Source: Porticoccus sp.
Lineage (GTDB): Bacteria; Pseudomonadota; Gammaproteobacteria; Pseudomonadales; Porticoccaceae
Assembly (NCBI GenBank): GCA_011049795.1
Contig: DRHD01000142.1
Span: 1 to 7,185, forward strand
Length of the DNA stretch: 7,185 nucleotides
Reading direction: 5' to 3'
In this document: positions 1-7,185 of the stretch, in pieces
Position numbering within the stretch: the first letter of the stretch is position 1
Layout: each line of letters begins with the position of its first letter
The notes under the pieces: model-generated
What the model was told of the DNA's origin: nothing
Database searches by the model: none
The model's input: only the letters and a program-made list of their open reading frames with translations
Position numbers and translations under genes: made by a program

Positions 1-161
1 GCTCTAAAGAGCGCCATATTCAGTTGCATTATGTGATCCAGTAAATAGCTCTTCAGACCTACCTCGTAATTCATCGCCTCTTCGTCTACAAACTCACGTT
101 GCGCCGCCGTTAGCTTACTGGTGTTGCCAGCCCAACCGCCACCCTTGCCGCCTTTACCCAT
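1..161 (-). pseudogene. TonB-dependent receptor fragment, 5'-truncated paralogue of the intact receptor
   Basis: Read on the minus strand from 161, an open frame runs to the window edge with no stop. It begins MGKGGKGGGWAGNTSK and continues through DEEAMNYEVG and KSYLLD. Over 51 residues it matches the mid-barrel part of the receptor encoded at 233-2641 (KGGKGGGWVGNTSG...KSYLLD) at 37 identities by my count. The DNA is clearly more diverged, so this is a paralogue and not a recent copy. It has no signal peptide, TonB box or plug: homology starts abruptly inside the barrel, about 10 bp from the T-tract of the terminator at 172-205. The ATG looks accidental, has no ribosome-binding site, and follows a terminator, so expression is unlikely. 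The 3' part lies outside the window, so I cannot say whether the barrel is complete downstream. Confidence 0.85.
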
Positions 162-2980: not shown

Positions 2981-3082
2981 TTATAGTGTCATACCACCAT
3001 CAACAACAATGCGTTCTCCCGTATAATTATTGATAATAGCAGAGACTATATAGAGTACGGTTTGCATTAAAACAAAGCGCCC
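2981..3082 (-). pseudogene. C-terminal remnant of a short-chain dehydrogenase/reductase (SDR)
   Basis: On the minus strand the frame ending at 2981 reads GRFVLMQTVLYIVS, then NNYTGERIVVDGGMTL and a stop. The ending YxTGExIVVDGGMTL is the hallmark C-terminus of classical SDR NAD(P)-dependent oxidoreductases. GRF...VLYIVS matches the preceding helix, usually G(R/W)...E(V/I)...VLFL(A/V)S, apparently with a few residues missing after LMQ. The frame stays open up to about 3163, but upstream residues lose SDR character and run into the end of the binding-protein gene. The Rossmann nucleotide-binding N-terminus and the YxxxK active site are absent, so this cannot be an enzyme. It looks like what is left after a deletion fused the tail of an SDR gene to its neighbour. 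Confidence 0.75.
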
Positions 3083-3137
3083 ATAGCAAGACTCAATAGT
3101 AGATCCATAACCACTAGTGAGGGGACAGGCAAAACAA

Positions 3138-3899
3138 CTAATCGGTTGGCCGAACAGCACCATGTATATTAGGAGGGGTTACAAAGGGACCAAGATTGAG
3201 CTCTTTCTGAAAAACTTTTTTAGAAATTTCATTATTAGCTAAAAAAACGCTAGCAATACGTGCTCTCAATTCAGAGGGAAGCGACGTGGATACCAATACA
3301 CCGGCCGAAGCTTTCTGATCAAATGTATGTATCACCCGCCAACTATCACTCAGCCGCCTACGTACTGCGGAGTTAGCATTTTCCGCAGCGATAAATGCTT
3401 GAATATTATCCTCTTTCAAGTTGTTCATAAGCTCAAAATAGTTTTTGTAAGTAACGATCTGAAATTTATTAGAGATTTGCGCAAGCTCCTTACGCACCAC
3501 CGCACTGAGATCTTGATCTTCCAATAAAGCGATTACCCTCAGCTCATCAATACCAGGCGCTACTTCATCATCCCTACCTAGCAATACACCAGCTTGATAC
3601 ATTACCGCAATGTTAACGTACTGACACTGCTCAAGTACCCGTTTAATAACAGACATTGAGGCCACTATGATGGCAGGCACGCCAGTCTTGCAGCGCTCTA
3701 ATAAGTTAGCAGTATCGTTACTGGCCCGTATAATAAATTTTGCCCCCACTTCATCAGACAGATGCTTAAAAAAGGGATTGACCATAGATCGAGTGGTGTC
3801 AGGCGTATGCACTGCATACCCCCACACCTCATAAGTCTCCTCGGCAAACGCCGAAGAAATTAAACACAGCCAAATAAAGCTTACTCGTAGAATTGACAT
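3138..3899 (-). CDS. Periplasmic PhnD/SsuA-like substrate-binding protein
   Basis: This 253-residue protein has a Sec signal peptide (MSILRVSFIWLCLISSAFA, cleavage AFA|EE near residue 19). The mature part resembles the type-2 periplasmic binding fold of the phosphonate-binding (PhnD-like) family. NPFFKHLSDEVGAKFIIRAS is the usual opening 'P...yLs...g' segment, CKTGVPAIIVASMSV the first-lobe strand and loop, and YFELMNNLKEDNIQAFIA the typical second-lobe 'l..G.vDa' region. Such proteins bind small anions or act as ligand sensors. No ABC permease or ATPase gene is nearby, so it is an orphan. It starts 16 bp after the DUF3604 stop, with only a weak ribosome-binding site, which suggests co-transcription and translational coupling. 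The last ten or so residues (NIHGAVRPTD) lie where the sequence joins the dehydrogenase scrap and may not be the native C-terminus. The ligand is unknown. Confidence 0.85.
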   Translation of the reverse strand: MSILRVSFIWLCLISSAFAEETYEVWGYAVHTPDTTRSMVNPFFKHLSDEVGAKFIIRASNDTANLLERCKTGVPAIIVASMSVIKRVLEQCQYVNIAVMYQAGVLLGRDDEVAPGIDELRVIALLEDQDLSAVVRKELAQISNKFQIVTYKNYFELMNNLKEDNIQAFIAAENANSAVRRRLSDSWRVIHTFDQKASAGVLVSTSLPSELRARIASVFLANNEISKKVFQKELNLGPFVTPPNIHGAVRPTD

Positions 3900-3915: not shown

Positions 3916-5817
3916 CTATTTTTGGGGCGAATACCATATGGGCGATGTATAAGCTCTTTCTGTATTGATTAAGGGAATATTTTCATCCAGCTCGATACCG
4001 TATCGAATTTTGTCATATAGCGTCCATCGTGGCGTAGGAATTTCTATAACGCGAACATAATAAAAAGCTTCAAGTGATGGATCGAAATCGGGGTCTACCC
4101 ACACCGCATTTAATTGTGCTGAACCCGTGGTATTATCCCAGCTGCCATCTTCAAGACTGACTGTATTAGCGATCAAAGGCACTTTGCCGTTCTCAGCCTT
4201 TTTGCGATCACCACTCCATACCACATCATAAACTTTTTCAGCAAGCTTGCCGTCTTGACCCAACCAGCCTTTAATAATTTGAATGCGATCTAAGCTACCG
4301 CCTTCAGGGTCTTGAATAGCGGCAACAATAAAAGATGGCGCTGCGTTACTTGGCTTGGTTAAATCGCCCCCCATTGGCACACCTTTTTGATAGCCTGCAG
4401 CGACTAAGTCGCCGTTAAGATCATTGGCAGAAAAAACCCAGCCACCAAAGAAACGCACCGTCATTCTGGAGCCGGTAGTCGCGTAAGTTTCTTTCCGACG
4501 CATTGCATCCCACAAAGACTCGCGGGTATTTTCATGCGCCCAAACAGCTGCATAACCGGAGGAAACTGTCTCCCAGTTATAGATTGTGCCATTTTTAGAT
4601 TTCACAAAAGGTTTAATCGACCGGGTTGGCGAAGGCTCGACACTACTGGCCTTGCCAAAAAAATTATTATCATCCGCTGTCGCTAGTGAAGTATGCGAAT
4701 CCGTACTACCAATCATCCCGAACTTATAAGGGTTTGTTCCCAATGACTGCTTAATTTTCAGCCCTAATTTTAAAGCAGAACGACCATACTCATATTCAAG
4801 CATGTCGTCAGTTTTTAATTGCGAGAAATCAAGATTCGCTCTATCCCAATTTTCAAAATCGGCAAACTCATCATCGGGTGATAGAAACGGGTGCGCTTCG
4901 CCGTCGCCCTTAATTTGAGTGACTTCATATAAAGGCTCCCACTGAATACGACGTTTCACATAATCTTCGTTAAAGGCATCACCGGAAAGTGTTTCTTCCA
5001 TAAACATCATGCCATTGCTCAAATTGCCATTGTGAGGAATAGCTAATACTTTGCCACCAGTCAGTTTTTCATAGGCGGCCAAATTTTCCCAAAGTAATTC
5101 AGGGTCAGAACTGTCTTCATTGGTAAACGGTAATTGCTGAATGGCTTTGTCTCCATCATCTTTAAAAATAACAACACGGTGCAAATTGTTGCCTTTAACC
5201 AGCGAGGTCCATTCATAACCGATCAGCGCAGTGAAAACTCCCGGCTGATTATATTTATCGGCGGCATCGACAATTGATTTCCATACCGGGGTCATCATTG
5301 CAGGATCATTCGATTTATAAGACAAAGTGCCCTGACTAAAATTACTGATAATATCAACGGCTAGCTCTGTCGTTTTACCTTCTTTTAACCATTGGCTCCA
5401 ACGCTTCCCTTCTGCCGTATTCATAATACTGCCGCGGTTATTGAGCAAATCCGGGAAGATACCCATACCATCCGAGTGATCAGCGATCACCACAAAATCC
5501 AAGGGGCGAGAAAGTTGCGCGCTTATACCTGTTGTTGAAGTAACTTGATCACCCCGGGCAAATTCGTAGGCAGCATCTAAACCCAGGCGATTACCAAAAG
5601 CACCGGCATCCAAAGATAAGTTAGTATGTATGTGGGTATCACCGAAAAAGGGCTTTTCGGGATATGACGATTGAACCGAGACTGAAGCGGAAGATGCATC
5701 GGCACTCACAGCATCTAACGGGTCAATGGTTTTTTCTTTAGGTTGCGCGATATCAGCTGAATTACCACAAGCTTGCAATAACAATGTAACCATGGATAGT
5801 AAAAAATAACGCCTCAT
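3916..5817 (-). CDS. DUF3604 (PHP-like metallohydrolase) lipoprotein
   Basis: This 633-residue protein starts with a lipoprotein signal. The lipobox is LQAC with Cys17, followed by Gly rather than Asp, so the outer membrane is the likely site. A Ser/Ala-rich linker reaches residue ~52. The body matches the DUF3604 family, which resembles PHP/amidohydrolase metal-dependent hydrolases. The metal-binding motifs are visible: FFGDTHIHT (57-65; His62, His64), IADHSDGMG (111-119; Asp113, His114, Asp116), IPHNGNLSNG (260-269; His262) and GSTDSHTS (370-377; Asp373, His375). All are intact, so it is probably catalytic, with hydrolysis of a phosphate or other ester as a family-based guess. The true substrate is not established to my knowledge. 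Length is typical. The ATG at 5817 is preceded by a GAGAG ribosome-binding site and gives a proper lipoprotein signal. It heads a likely two-gene operon with the binding protein downstream, and its promoter region holds the second 75-bp operator-like repeat. Confidence 0.93.
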   Translation of the reverse strand: MRRYFLLSMVTLLLQACGNSADIAQPKEKTIDPLDAVSADASSASVSVQSSYPEKPFFGDTHIHTNLSLDAGAFGNRLGLDAAYEFARGDQVTSTTGISAQLSRPLDFVVIADHSDGMGIFPDLLNNRGSIMNTAEGKRWSQWLKEGKTTELAVDIISNFSQGTLSYKSNDPAMMTPVWKSIVDAADKYNQPGVFTALIGYEWTSLVKGNNLHRVVIFKDDGDKAIQQLPFTNEDSSDPELLWENLAAYEKLTGGKVLAIPHNGNLSNGMMFMEETLSGDAFNEDYVKRRIQWEPLYEVTQIKGDGEAHPFLSPDDEFADFENWDRANLDFSQLKTDDMLEYEYGRSALKLGLKIKQSLGTNPYKFGMIGSTDSHTSLATADDNNFFGKASSVEPSPTRSIKPFVKSKNGTIYNWETVSSGYAAVWAHENTRESLWDAMRRKETYATTGSRMTVRFFGGWVFSANDLNGDLVAAGYQKGVPMGGDLTKPSNAAPSFIVAAIQDPEGGSLDRIQIIKGWLGQDGKLAEKVYDVVWSGDRKKAENGKVPLIANTVSLEDGSWDNTTGSAQLNAVWVDPDFDPSLEAFYYVRVIEIPTPRWTLYDKIRYGIELDENIPLINTERAYTSPIWYSPQK

Positions 5818-5882
5818 AACTTAACTCTCTCTAATCGATGGATACAAAATTCAGGCTAGCATCCCGAATGGAGACCGAAACT

Positions 5883-5907
5883 TACAACAATCAGCGCAGT
5901 TGTTGTA
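5883..5907. promoter_or_regulatory. Perfect 8-bp inverted repeat upstream of the DUF3604 gene
   Basis: TACAACAA (5883-5890) and TTGTTGTA (5900-5907) are exact reverse complements around a 9-base spacer. The element lies 66-90 bp before the DUF3604 start codon, a plausible dimeric operator position. Its right arm overlaps the first bases of the 75-bp repeat. The left arm has no counterpart at the receptor copy, so this dyad is specific to this promoter. Confidence 0.4.
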
Positions 5908-5976
5908 CCTGGTCTGGACAGTGTTGTCCGGAATTAATACAAAAACGTCCGGACGGCCTATGCCCATGCTTAGTGG
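5902..5976 (+). repeat. 75-bp operator-like repeat, copy R, upstream of the DUF3604 gene
   Basis: This is the plus-strand counterpart of 2698-2772 (62 of 75 bases identical, no gaps). It lies 85-159 bp upstream of the DUF3604 start, in the opposite orientation to the receptor copy relative to the gene it precedes. Its high-coordinate end (5976) coincides within about two bases with the point where AraC homology stops (5978). This suggests a rearrangement joint. The TATTTA box of copy L is TGCTTA here. Confidence 0.85.
5926..5953 (+). promoter_or_regulatory. Candidate AraC-type operator before the DUF3604 gene
   Basis: GTCCGGA is directly repeated at 5926-5932 and 5947-5953, a 21-bp period, the same as in the receptor copy. 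The second repeat lies in the palindrome CGTCCGGACG. The first is part of GGACAGTGTTGTCC (5916-5929), a 5-4-5 dyad that is better preserved here than upstream of the receptor. These motifs survive while nearby bases differ, which argues for selection on protein binding. This is inference. Confidence 0.5.
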
Positions 5977-5977
5977 C

Positions 5978-6094
5978 TAACGACAAGCTGCTGCCCTCCA
6001 GCAACTTTTTGGCCGTTTCAATACGCTGGTTTTGTAAATACCCAAGTGGCGGTGTACCGGCTTCGGTTTTTAACTTTCGAATCAAAGTGCGCCT
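5978..6094 (-). pseudogene. AraC-family transcriptional regulator remnant
   Basis: The minus strand encodes RRTLIRKLKTEAG, then PPLGYLQNQRIETAKKLL and EGSSLSL. This is the standard AraC/XylS DNA-binding pattern: recognition helix of the first helix-turn-helix (S.RtLiRrFk...G), then the linker helix (P..YLq..RiE.AK.LLE). The second helix-turn-helix should follow but is missing. After SLSL the frame runs into the 75-bp repeat and gives unrelated residues until 5891. Upstream of RRTL, resemblance fades within about ten codons, and no N-terminal ligand domain is found up to 6450. The open frame has only a TTG or internal ATG start and no ribosome-binding site. About 40 residues of a family usually near 300 remain. 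It may be a relic of the regulator that used the neighbouring operator elements. Confidence 0.8.
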
Positions 6095-6145
6095 GCAAAT
6101 GACGCACCGAAACCTATACTTATACATTACGTTAGAAGAACACAA

Positions 6146-6453
6146 AGTCGATTCGTAAGGCTTCGACGTTCCGGTTAGCCGAATACCATACGTTATTGGC
6201 CGGTATTAATTGAGTCAGACGACGAATGCGCCCATATACTAAAAACAATAGCCGGAGATCGAATTTTGGGCAGGGTGTTTAGACCGTATCAGCAACCCAA
6301 GCTGGTGATAAATTCATCCATTAGATGCCAAGCGTGTTACTGATTGACGCACGCAATAGATTTATTTCTGTCACTCATCAATGGAATCCATTGAGTGAAA
6401 ATTGGTCTCCCAGGCAAACGTAGAAAGTAAAATCAATAGTCAAAGAGGTTCTC
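6146..6453. other. Intergenic region before the membrane-protein gene
   Basis: I recognise no gene in this 308-bp gap on either strand. Plus-strand codons from about 6241 stay open for roughly 30 residues but resemble nothing I know. Contents: a short dyad, AATACC/GGTATT (6182-6187 and 6202-6207), the stronger hairpin at 6372-6397, and the ribosome-binding site of the next gene. The promoter of the plus-strand pair must lie here, but no clear -35/-10 pair stands out. Confidence 0.5.
6372..6397. promoter_or_regulatory. Bulged palindrome upstream of the membrane-protein gene
   Basis: CACTC and AATGG on the left pair with CCATT and GAGTG on the right around an AAT loop. This gives ten base pairs with a three-base bulge (ATC) in the left arm. 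It sits 57-82 bp before the start codon at 6454. No T-run follows, so an operator or a 5'-leader hairpin is likelier than a terminator. Its function is unknown. Confidence 0.35.
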
Positions 6454-6879
6454 ATGACCCAGCCTATACGCCCCACGCAAGTTACTATTTTTGCAATTCT
6501 TTCATTTGTAGCCGCTCTATTCACGCTCTATCTAGGCACCATCGCTTCTGCTTATTACCTGATGGCGATCAGTTTGCTACTGGCGGCTTACTGTCTGTGG
6601 ACCGGCTGGTATCAAAAGGTTTTCAAAAATGTTTTGCTGCTTAATCAAGTAACAGGAATTGCCCTTATTGTATTAATCGCCTATCGCAAAATTGCCCTTC
6701 CCAGCGAGGAGTTCACCCTTACTCTTAGTGGCATTGCGCTAGTTGGAAACGTCTTGGTTGGCGGTCCCTTCCTTGCGATTCTGGCTATTCCATTAATCCC
6801 CCTTCTGTCGAACGGTAAAACCTTGCCCGCCTGGTTTAATGCCCAGTCTAAGCAGACACCGAACCTGACTAATAAGTAA
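6454..6879 (+). CDS. Small integral membrane protein of unknown function
   Basis: This 141-residue hydrophobic protein has about four membrane segments, near residues 10-30, 33-52, 58-77 and 91-117. A short basic loop (WYQKVFKN) lies between the second and third, and a polar C-terminal tail (QSKQTPNLTNK) ends it. There is no signal peptide apart from the first membrane helix and no catalytic motif, and I do not recognise a named family. The ATG is well supported by AGAGG at 6444-6448, five bases upstream. The gene ends 18 bp before the next plus-strand start, so the two are probably one operon. It could be a membrane partner for the secreted protein downstream, but only position supports that. 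Confidence 0.85.
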   Translation: MTQPIRPTQVTIFAILSFVAALFTLYLGTIASAYYLMAISLLLAAYCLWTGWYQKVFKNVLLLNQVTGIALIVLIAYRKIALPSEEFTLTLSGIALVGNVLVGGPFLAILAIPLIPLLSNGKTLPAWFNAQSKQTPNLTNK

Positions 6880-6897
6880 AGTAGAGAGGAAACCATT

Positions 6898-7185
6898 ATG
6901 TCATTGAATAAATTAACTGCTGTATTATCGATTGCCATCTCTACGCTGACCGCTACGACAGCCAATAGTGCTGGCTTAACGGGCACTATTAGCACTGAAT
7001 CTGGCAAGCCCGTTATGGGGGCAATGCTCAGTGTATGGAACGAAGACAAAACACGAAAGGAAACTGTCTATACCTATGGTGATATCCTTCATGGAGTCGG
7101 CAAAGTTAAGCAGACGTGCCCGCACTTGCAGGCTGCCGCCAAAATCGGTGCGAATGGCATAGGCACCTTCTGCATCGGTATAGAC
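6898..7185 (+). CDS. Secreted carboxypeptidase-regulatory-like domain protein, partial and disrupted by an inverted segment
   Basis: A strong ribosome-binding site (AGAGGAAA, 6884-6891) precedes the ATG. The product has a Sec signal peptide (MSLNKLTAVLSIAISTLTAT, then TANSA; cleavage near residue 25). The mature part opens with GLTGTISTESGKPVMGAMLS and VWNEDKTRKETVYT, the first half of a CarboxypepD_reg-like (Ig-like beta-sandwich) domain. The expected continuation, a 'DaeGxYxixT' strand, is not on this strand. The plus-strand frame stays open but gives unrelated residues (YGDILHGVGKVK...). The missing half is encoded in frame on the minus strand of the same bases, beginning VYTDAEGAYAIRTDFGG. 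Relatives often carry such a domain ahead of a beta-propeller or lyase-like region; that part, if present, is beyond the window. As written, the gene is either broken or mis-assembled at its edge. Confidence 0.75.
   Translation, partial: MSLNKLTAVLSIAISTLTATTANSAGLTGTISTESGKPVMGAMLSVWNEDKTRKETVYTYGDILHGVGKVKQTCPHLQAAAKIGANGIGTFCIGID
7066..7185 (-). other. Inverted 120-bp segment bounded by GTCTATACC inverted repeats
   Basis: GTCTATACC at 7066-7074 is the exact reverse complement of GGTATAGAC at 7177-7185, the last nine bases of the window. Flipping the segment turns the plus-strand reading into ...KETVYTDAEGAYAIRT... then GGSLQVRARLLNFAD, SMKDITI and GID. This is a continuous in-frame completion of the domain begun upstream, and the length is a multiple of three. 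Past the 9-bp arms, one mismatch is followed by a shared ATG. The segment is therefore inverted relative to the ancestral gene. Confidence 0.8.

Follow-up and report, generated by a model that had tools for sequence, protein, structure and literature searches.

The right end of the contig described here is very probably a fold-back (inverted) chimera, that is an artefact and not a rearranged gene. The window, by which we mean the whole stretch of DNA that was analyzed, is one entire contig of 7185 bp, as its 96-amino acid end protein (P0001) is recorded on a single contig of 7185 bases. The last gene starts at position 6898 on the plus strand and can be read for 96 codons, up to the window end, without a stop. 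Its 5' part (6898–7074, plus strand), which belongs to a probable secreted-protein gene and encodes the first half of a carboxypeptidase-regulatory-like domain, reads MSLNKL...RKETVYT and is identical to residues 1–59 of the public protein P0003. The remainder lies on the minus strand, where positions 7185 to 7075 (111 nt) read VYTDAEGAYAIRTDFGGSLQVRARLLNFADSMKDITI, which is exactly residues 57–93 of P0003. The initial annotation had placed the first half on the plus strand up to VYT and the rest on the minus strand of the next 111 bases, and this description agrees with P0003 residue by residue. A tblastn comparison of P0003 residues 40–110 with the window returned the minus strand of 7185–7066, with 97.5% over 40 residues and an E-value of 8.6e-23, and the match of the window end to P0003 on two strands is far beyond chance. 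The joined, unflipped reading scores 40.4 bits for PF13620 (3.8e-10; cut-off 32.3), whereas the plus strand as it stands, which is the flipped reading, reaches 15.4 bits and stays below this cut-off. As the public protein matches the normal orientation of the gene, an artefact rather than a genetic switch is the most likely explanation.

P0003 was identified in a protein search with the joined 93-amino acid reading, extended by the tail of a relative, and the scoring was restricted to residues 1–93. Three proteins were returned, of which P0003 (603 amino acids, encoded on another contig of 6352 bp) was the best and agrees with the joined unflipped reading at 93/93 residues; the other two, P0004 (64% identity) and P0005 (60%), are unflipped as well. 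Both halves of the window's gene therefore form one uninterrupted protein, in which the order is VYT-DAEG...KDITI-GKD-DIGKLD and which continues with a CxxCH site and a propeller domain. Besides PF13620, the Pfam families of P0003 are PF24684 (Virginiamycin B lyase family, an assignment that refers to the family name only) and PF08450, and the CxxCH motif was recognized by eye. The gene is thus an ordinary member of a family with a carboxypeptidase-regulatory-like domain, a CxxCH motif and a Vgb_lyase/SGL propeller, and the window differs from P0003 and its relatives in that only the first 59 codons stand in the normal orientation. A shorter relative, P0002 (58 amino acids, on a contig of 617 bp), is 85% identical over 51% of the query; it diverges from the window protein past MLTVW and then reaches a stop, and is possibly another broken or chimeric end.

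The details of the two arms at the bounds of the reversed segment point to a copying process. The left arm, GTCTATACC (7066–7074, plus strand), represents the codons V-Y-T and is the proposed folded-back 3' end. It is followed by a reverse-complement copy of the next 102 nt of the gene (7075–7176, minus strand), which encodes residues 60–93, DAEGAYAI...KDITI, identical to P0003, and then by the right arm, GGTATAGAC (7177–7185, minus strand), a second, reversed copy of the V-Y-T codons that is cut by the contig end. The right arm is the exact reverse complement of the left arm, and in its reading the minus strand continues past KDITI with GID, whereas P0003 reads GKD. Compared with the possible G-K-D codons of P0003 (GGN AAR GAY, derived from the protein), the right arm agrees at 5 to 8 of 9 bases and never at all nine. 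In P0003 the VYT codons are followed after about 100 nt by the G-K-D site, which forms an imperfect inverted repeat with them; five of nine pairs are guaranteed and at most eight are possible. If the P0003 form is inverted conservatively, the two arms are not obtained: none of 160 products (16 codon choices combined with 10 crossover points, P0003 taken as the parent) fits them and the nearest is one base off, whereas a fold-back copy fits both arms with no mismatch. As recombination would keep the bases of both original arms in its product, conservative inversion is disfavoured, but this case may hang on a single base at the contig end (AAR versus ATA) and assumes that P0003, known from its protein and not from its DNA, is the parental form.

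The coding segment “flipped in place” between two short inverted repeats, as first proposed, is not supported, because the window ends before any return to the normal gene and the right arm copies the left one where P0003 differs. The two arms themselves are present as had been described, but on its outer side the right arm is limited by nothing more than the end of the contig, so that the “9-bp inverted repeat” lacks a true boundary; the same pair of arms would appear in any copy running back through VYT.

We therefore favor the following scenario, whose priming step and stage of occurrence we infer. In the real genome the gene would continue in one direction, as in P0003. A strand with the 3' end GTCTATACC would anneal to the imperfect G-K-D repeat, either within itself or on a sister strand, and extension of this 3' end backwards would copy the downstream stretch in reverse and then the strand's own VYT codons, which yields GGTATAGAC. 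This could have happened during amplification or library end-repair, and the assembler would then have kept the reverse copy as the final 111 bases of the contig. We assume here that the source DNA went through amplification, sonication or short-read assembly. Priming sites of this kind are available, as complementarity of at least 5/9 at equal spacing is not rare in coding DNA and was found for 62 of 1325 codon-aligned 9-mers in two other genes of the window. Two points count against a fold-back. The contig breaks off precisely where the right arm ends and where complementarity to the P0003 codons would end, and this coincidence is not accounted for by the fold-back reading; furthermore, one flipped and one unflipped contig would also be expected from a mixed population with both orientations.

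Relatives at a greater distance were sought in genomes sampled from the class and the order to which G005 belongs. The 93-amino acid reading was matched at 1e-4 in 4 of the 369 class genomes, and P0003 at 1e-30 in 36 of the 390 order genomes. Both arm positions are covered in 13 of the 16 loci examined (11 genomes), and all 13 are unflipped; in the other three (L099, L090 and L102) one arm residue is absent from the alignment. The 13 loci were judged by alignments to the whole P0003. The stretch of residues 40–110 alone matches at an E-value of 0.01 in eight of them (not in L093, L095, L100, L103 and L105). L089, L091 and L092 are three paralogues from a single genome (G129), and L094 has one stop in its frame. 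L081–L083 and L085–L088 represent the same places as used loci and were left out, as were L084 (a distant match) and L104 (the match begins past the left arm). The flipped plus-strand reading of 7066–7185 was matched at an E-value of 0.01 in none of the 25 loci L081–L105, several of which are the same place. The identity of P0003 to the unflipped form together with the uniform orientation of the 13 relatives indicates that the orientation in the window is the aberrant one. Between the arm positions of these 13 relatives, 1 to 6 of the 9 bases are complementary, so there is no conserved inverted repeat, which also speaks against the proposed flip in place. Perfect inverted repeats of 6–10 nt are present in the same region of the relatives, which shows that short arms alone mean little.

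An invertible switch, a fixed micro-inversion and a fold-back had all been offered as explanations at the outset. The reversal of orientation is real in the letters and the fold-back is the best supported of them. That a real micro-inversion exists in some cells seems unlikely to us, although it is the most probable of the alternatives. It could arise by template switching in vivo at the same imperfect inverted repeat, with replication changing strands, running back through the left arm and then returning, and would represent a rare altered or broken allele. This route yields identical letters, including a right arm that copies the left one, and would be distinguished from a fold-back only by the sequence past 7185; the 160 modeled products bear only on conservative inversion, the flipped frame is open to the window end, and P0003 and the window would in that case represent two alleles. 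However, it requires a return switch that is not seen within the window, it would scramble 34 residues of a domain recognized only in the unflipped form, the segment sits at the contig end as predicted for an artefact, and such a form occurs in none of the 13 relatives covering both arms. It is equally unlikely that we are looking at a rare natural variant in which template switching at an imperfect 9-bp inverted repeat turned 102 bp in frame in the regulatory-like domain, with a population carrying two protein forms. The open frame, which had been put forward for both the flipped and the unflipped form, does exist as far as the window end but carries little weight, as antisense frames elsewhere in the window can be open too: among in-phase 37-codon antisense stretches of three other genes, 143/766, 101/597 and, in the 141-amino acid gene, 0/105 are open, which corresponds to about 18% in the two large genes.

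A switch between two forms of the secreted protein driven by a site-specific recombinase, as in an intragenic inverton, is in our view very improbable. One contig per orientation exists and both forms are open frames as far as they can be seen, but the conservative inversion expected from such an enzyme misses the observed arms by one base at best, the parental arms comprise 9 nt with at most 8/9 complementarity compared with the 10–40 nt stated for inverton repeats in PMC11892184, and the arm positions of the 13 relatives show complementarity at no more than 6 of 9 bases. Furthermore, no site-specific recombinase was recognized among five scanned proteins of the window, which covers 7.2 kb and one side of the segment. 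Short and imperfect arms, their lack of conservation and the absence of a recombinase among these five proteins together make a recombinase-driven switch unlikely, and the missing conservation of the arms in the 13 relatives led us to reject a conserved switch. We consider it next to inconceivable that the gene is normally flipped and that P0003 is the aberrant copy. The sole support is the plus-strand frame that is open to the window end, and against it stand the Pfam scores of the two readings, the unflipped P0004 and P0005, the 13 unflipped loci among the 16 and the failure of the plus-strand reading of 7066–7185 to match any of the 25 loci.

Several other searches returned no useful relatives. 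A pattern scan of genome contigs with the joined 93-amino acid reading matched 241 stretches, none of which encodes a relative, and viral contigs contained no match to DUF3604, to a 20-mer of the unflipped junction or to P0003. Phage records gave no match to 3916–7185. Plasmid records with matches to the DUF3604 protein (80) all remained below 60% identity, and the 10 records with matches to P0003 were likewise below 60%, none of them covering 80% of P0003. No Rfam family reached the gathering score in the window. In 80 loci found via DUF3604, no match at 1e-3 to the joined 93-amino acid reading or to the 141-amino acid protein was present within the DNA fetched.

The neighbor of the truncated gene is an uninterrupted gene for a protein of 141 amino acids (6454–6879, plus strand; 100% identity to P0006), which has no Pfam family and by eye is probably a membrane protein. 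P0006 is recorded on two contigs, of which the longer is the 7185-bp window and the second is probably the contig of P0003. In P0004 (720 amino acids) a membrane-protein-like stretch that by eye resembles the 141-amino acid neighbor is followed by the secreted protein in one open frame, which suggests that both genes belong together. Elsewhere in the window a pair of 78-nt inverted repeats (2698–2775 and 5899–5976, 82% alike) flanks about 3.1 kb with phosphonate-binding-like and DUF3604 genes. An exact search for the core pattern of this repeat gave no match in a sample of 145 genomes from the order that includes G005, and one copy as a single strand showed no notable fold (z −1.05). The remnant of a helix-turn-helix gene, which we take to be AraC-type, is located at 5891–6145 on the minus strand (PF12833, 2.4e-6, 28.2 bits, below the curated cut-off of 33.6); its reading enters the repeat copy at 5899–5976 and it looks like a truncated gene. 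At the left contig end, positions 35–156 (minus strand) contain a fragment like part of the adjacent TonB-dependent receptor gene (82/122 nt, 67%) joined to unrelated sequence. This fragment, whose reading matches no Pfam family at 0.01, is either a tandem copy in decay or a further end chimera. A short frame at 2981–3163 (minus strand), also with no Pfam match at 0.01, ends in GERIVVDGGMTL, which presumably resembles the C-terminus of short-chain dehydrogenases, and is a possible gene remnant.

Chanin et al. reportedly described in 2024 intragenic invertons, in which a stretch is inverted inside a reading frame between inverted repeats. The window resembles them in the inverted stretch within a reading frame and in the inverted repeats on either side, but its parental repeats are short and imperfect and are not conserved in the relatives, the right arm is not explained by a conservative inversion, and the five scanned proteins include no recombinase. 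It is a worked case of how a contig-end fold-back chimera can mimic an invertible coding switch; the tell-tale is a second arm that copies the first and conflicts with an intact copy of the gene, and checking the arms in this way could help to remove spurious intragenic inversions from metagenome contigs. Were the window a true variant after all, it would be an example of coding micro-inversions that arise from imperfect repeats of 9 bp.

The window end resembles published artefacts. In sonicated libraries, most of the soft-clipped reads with artefacts carried natural inverted repeats that were nearly perfect, and the stretch enclosed by these repeats was inverted (PMC10908179). The window shares with this PDSM model the inversion of a sequence between two natural repeats, but those chimeras are reads from human DNA, whereas here an assembled contig end is concerned and the repeat of the intact form is known from the protein only. 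PMC8674242 attributes chimeric reads to single strands mis-annealed at end-repair. For multiple displacement amplification (MDA), 406 of 475 chimeras were inverted joins (Table 1 of PMC1855051) and more than 70% of the chimera junctions were primed at 2–21 complementary nucleotides. The window, whose DNA may or may not have been amplified by MDA, is like these inverted chimeras in the inverted join of close segments, the short complementary priming site and the omission of the intervening stretch.
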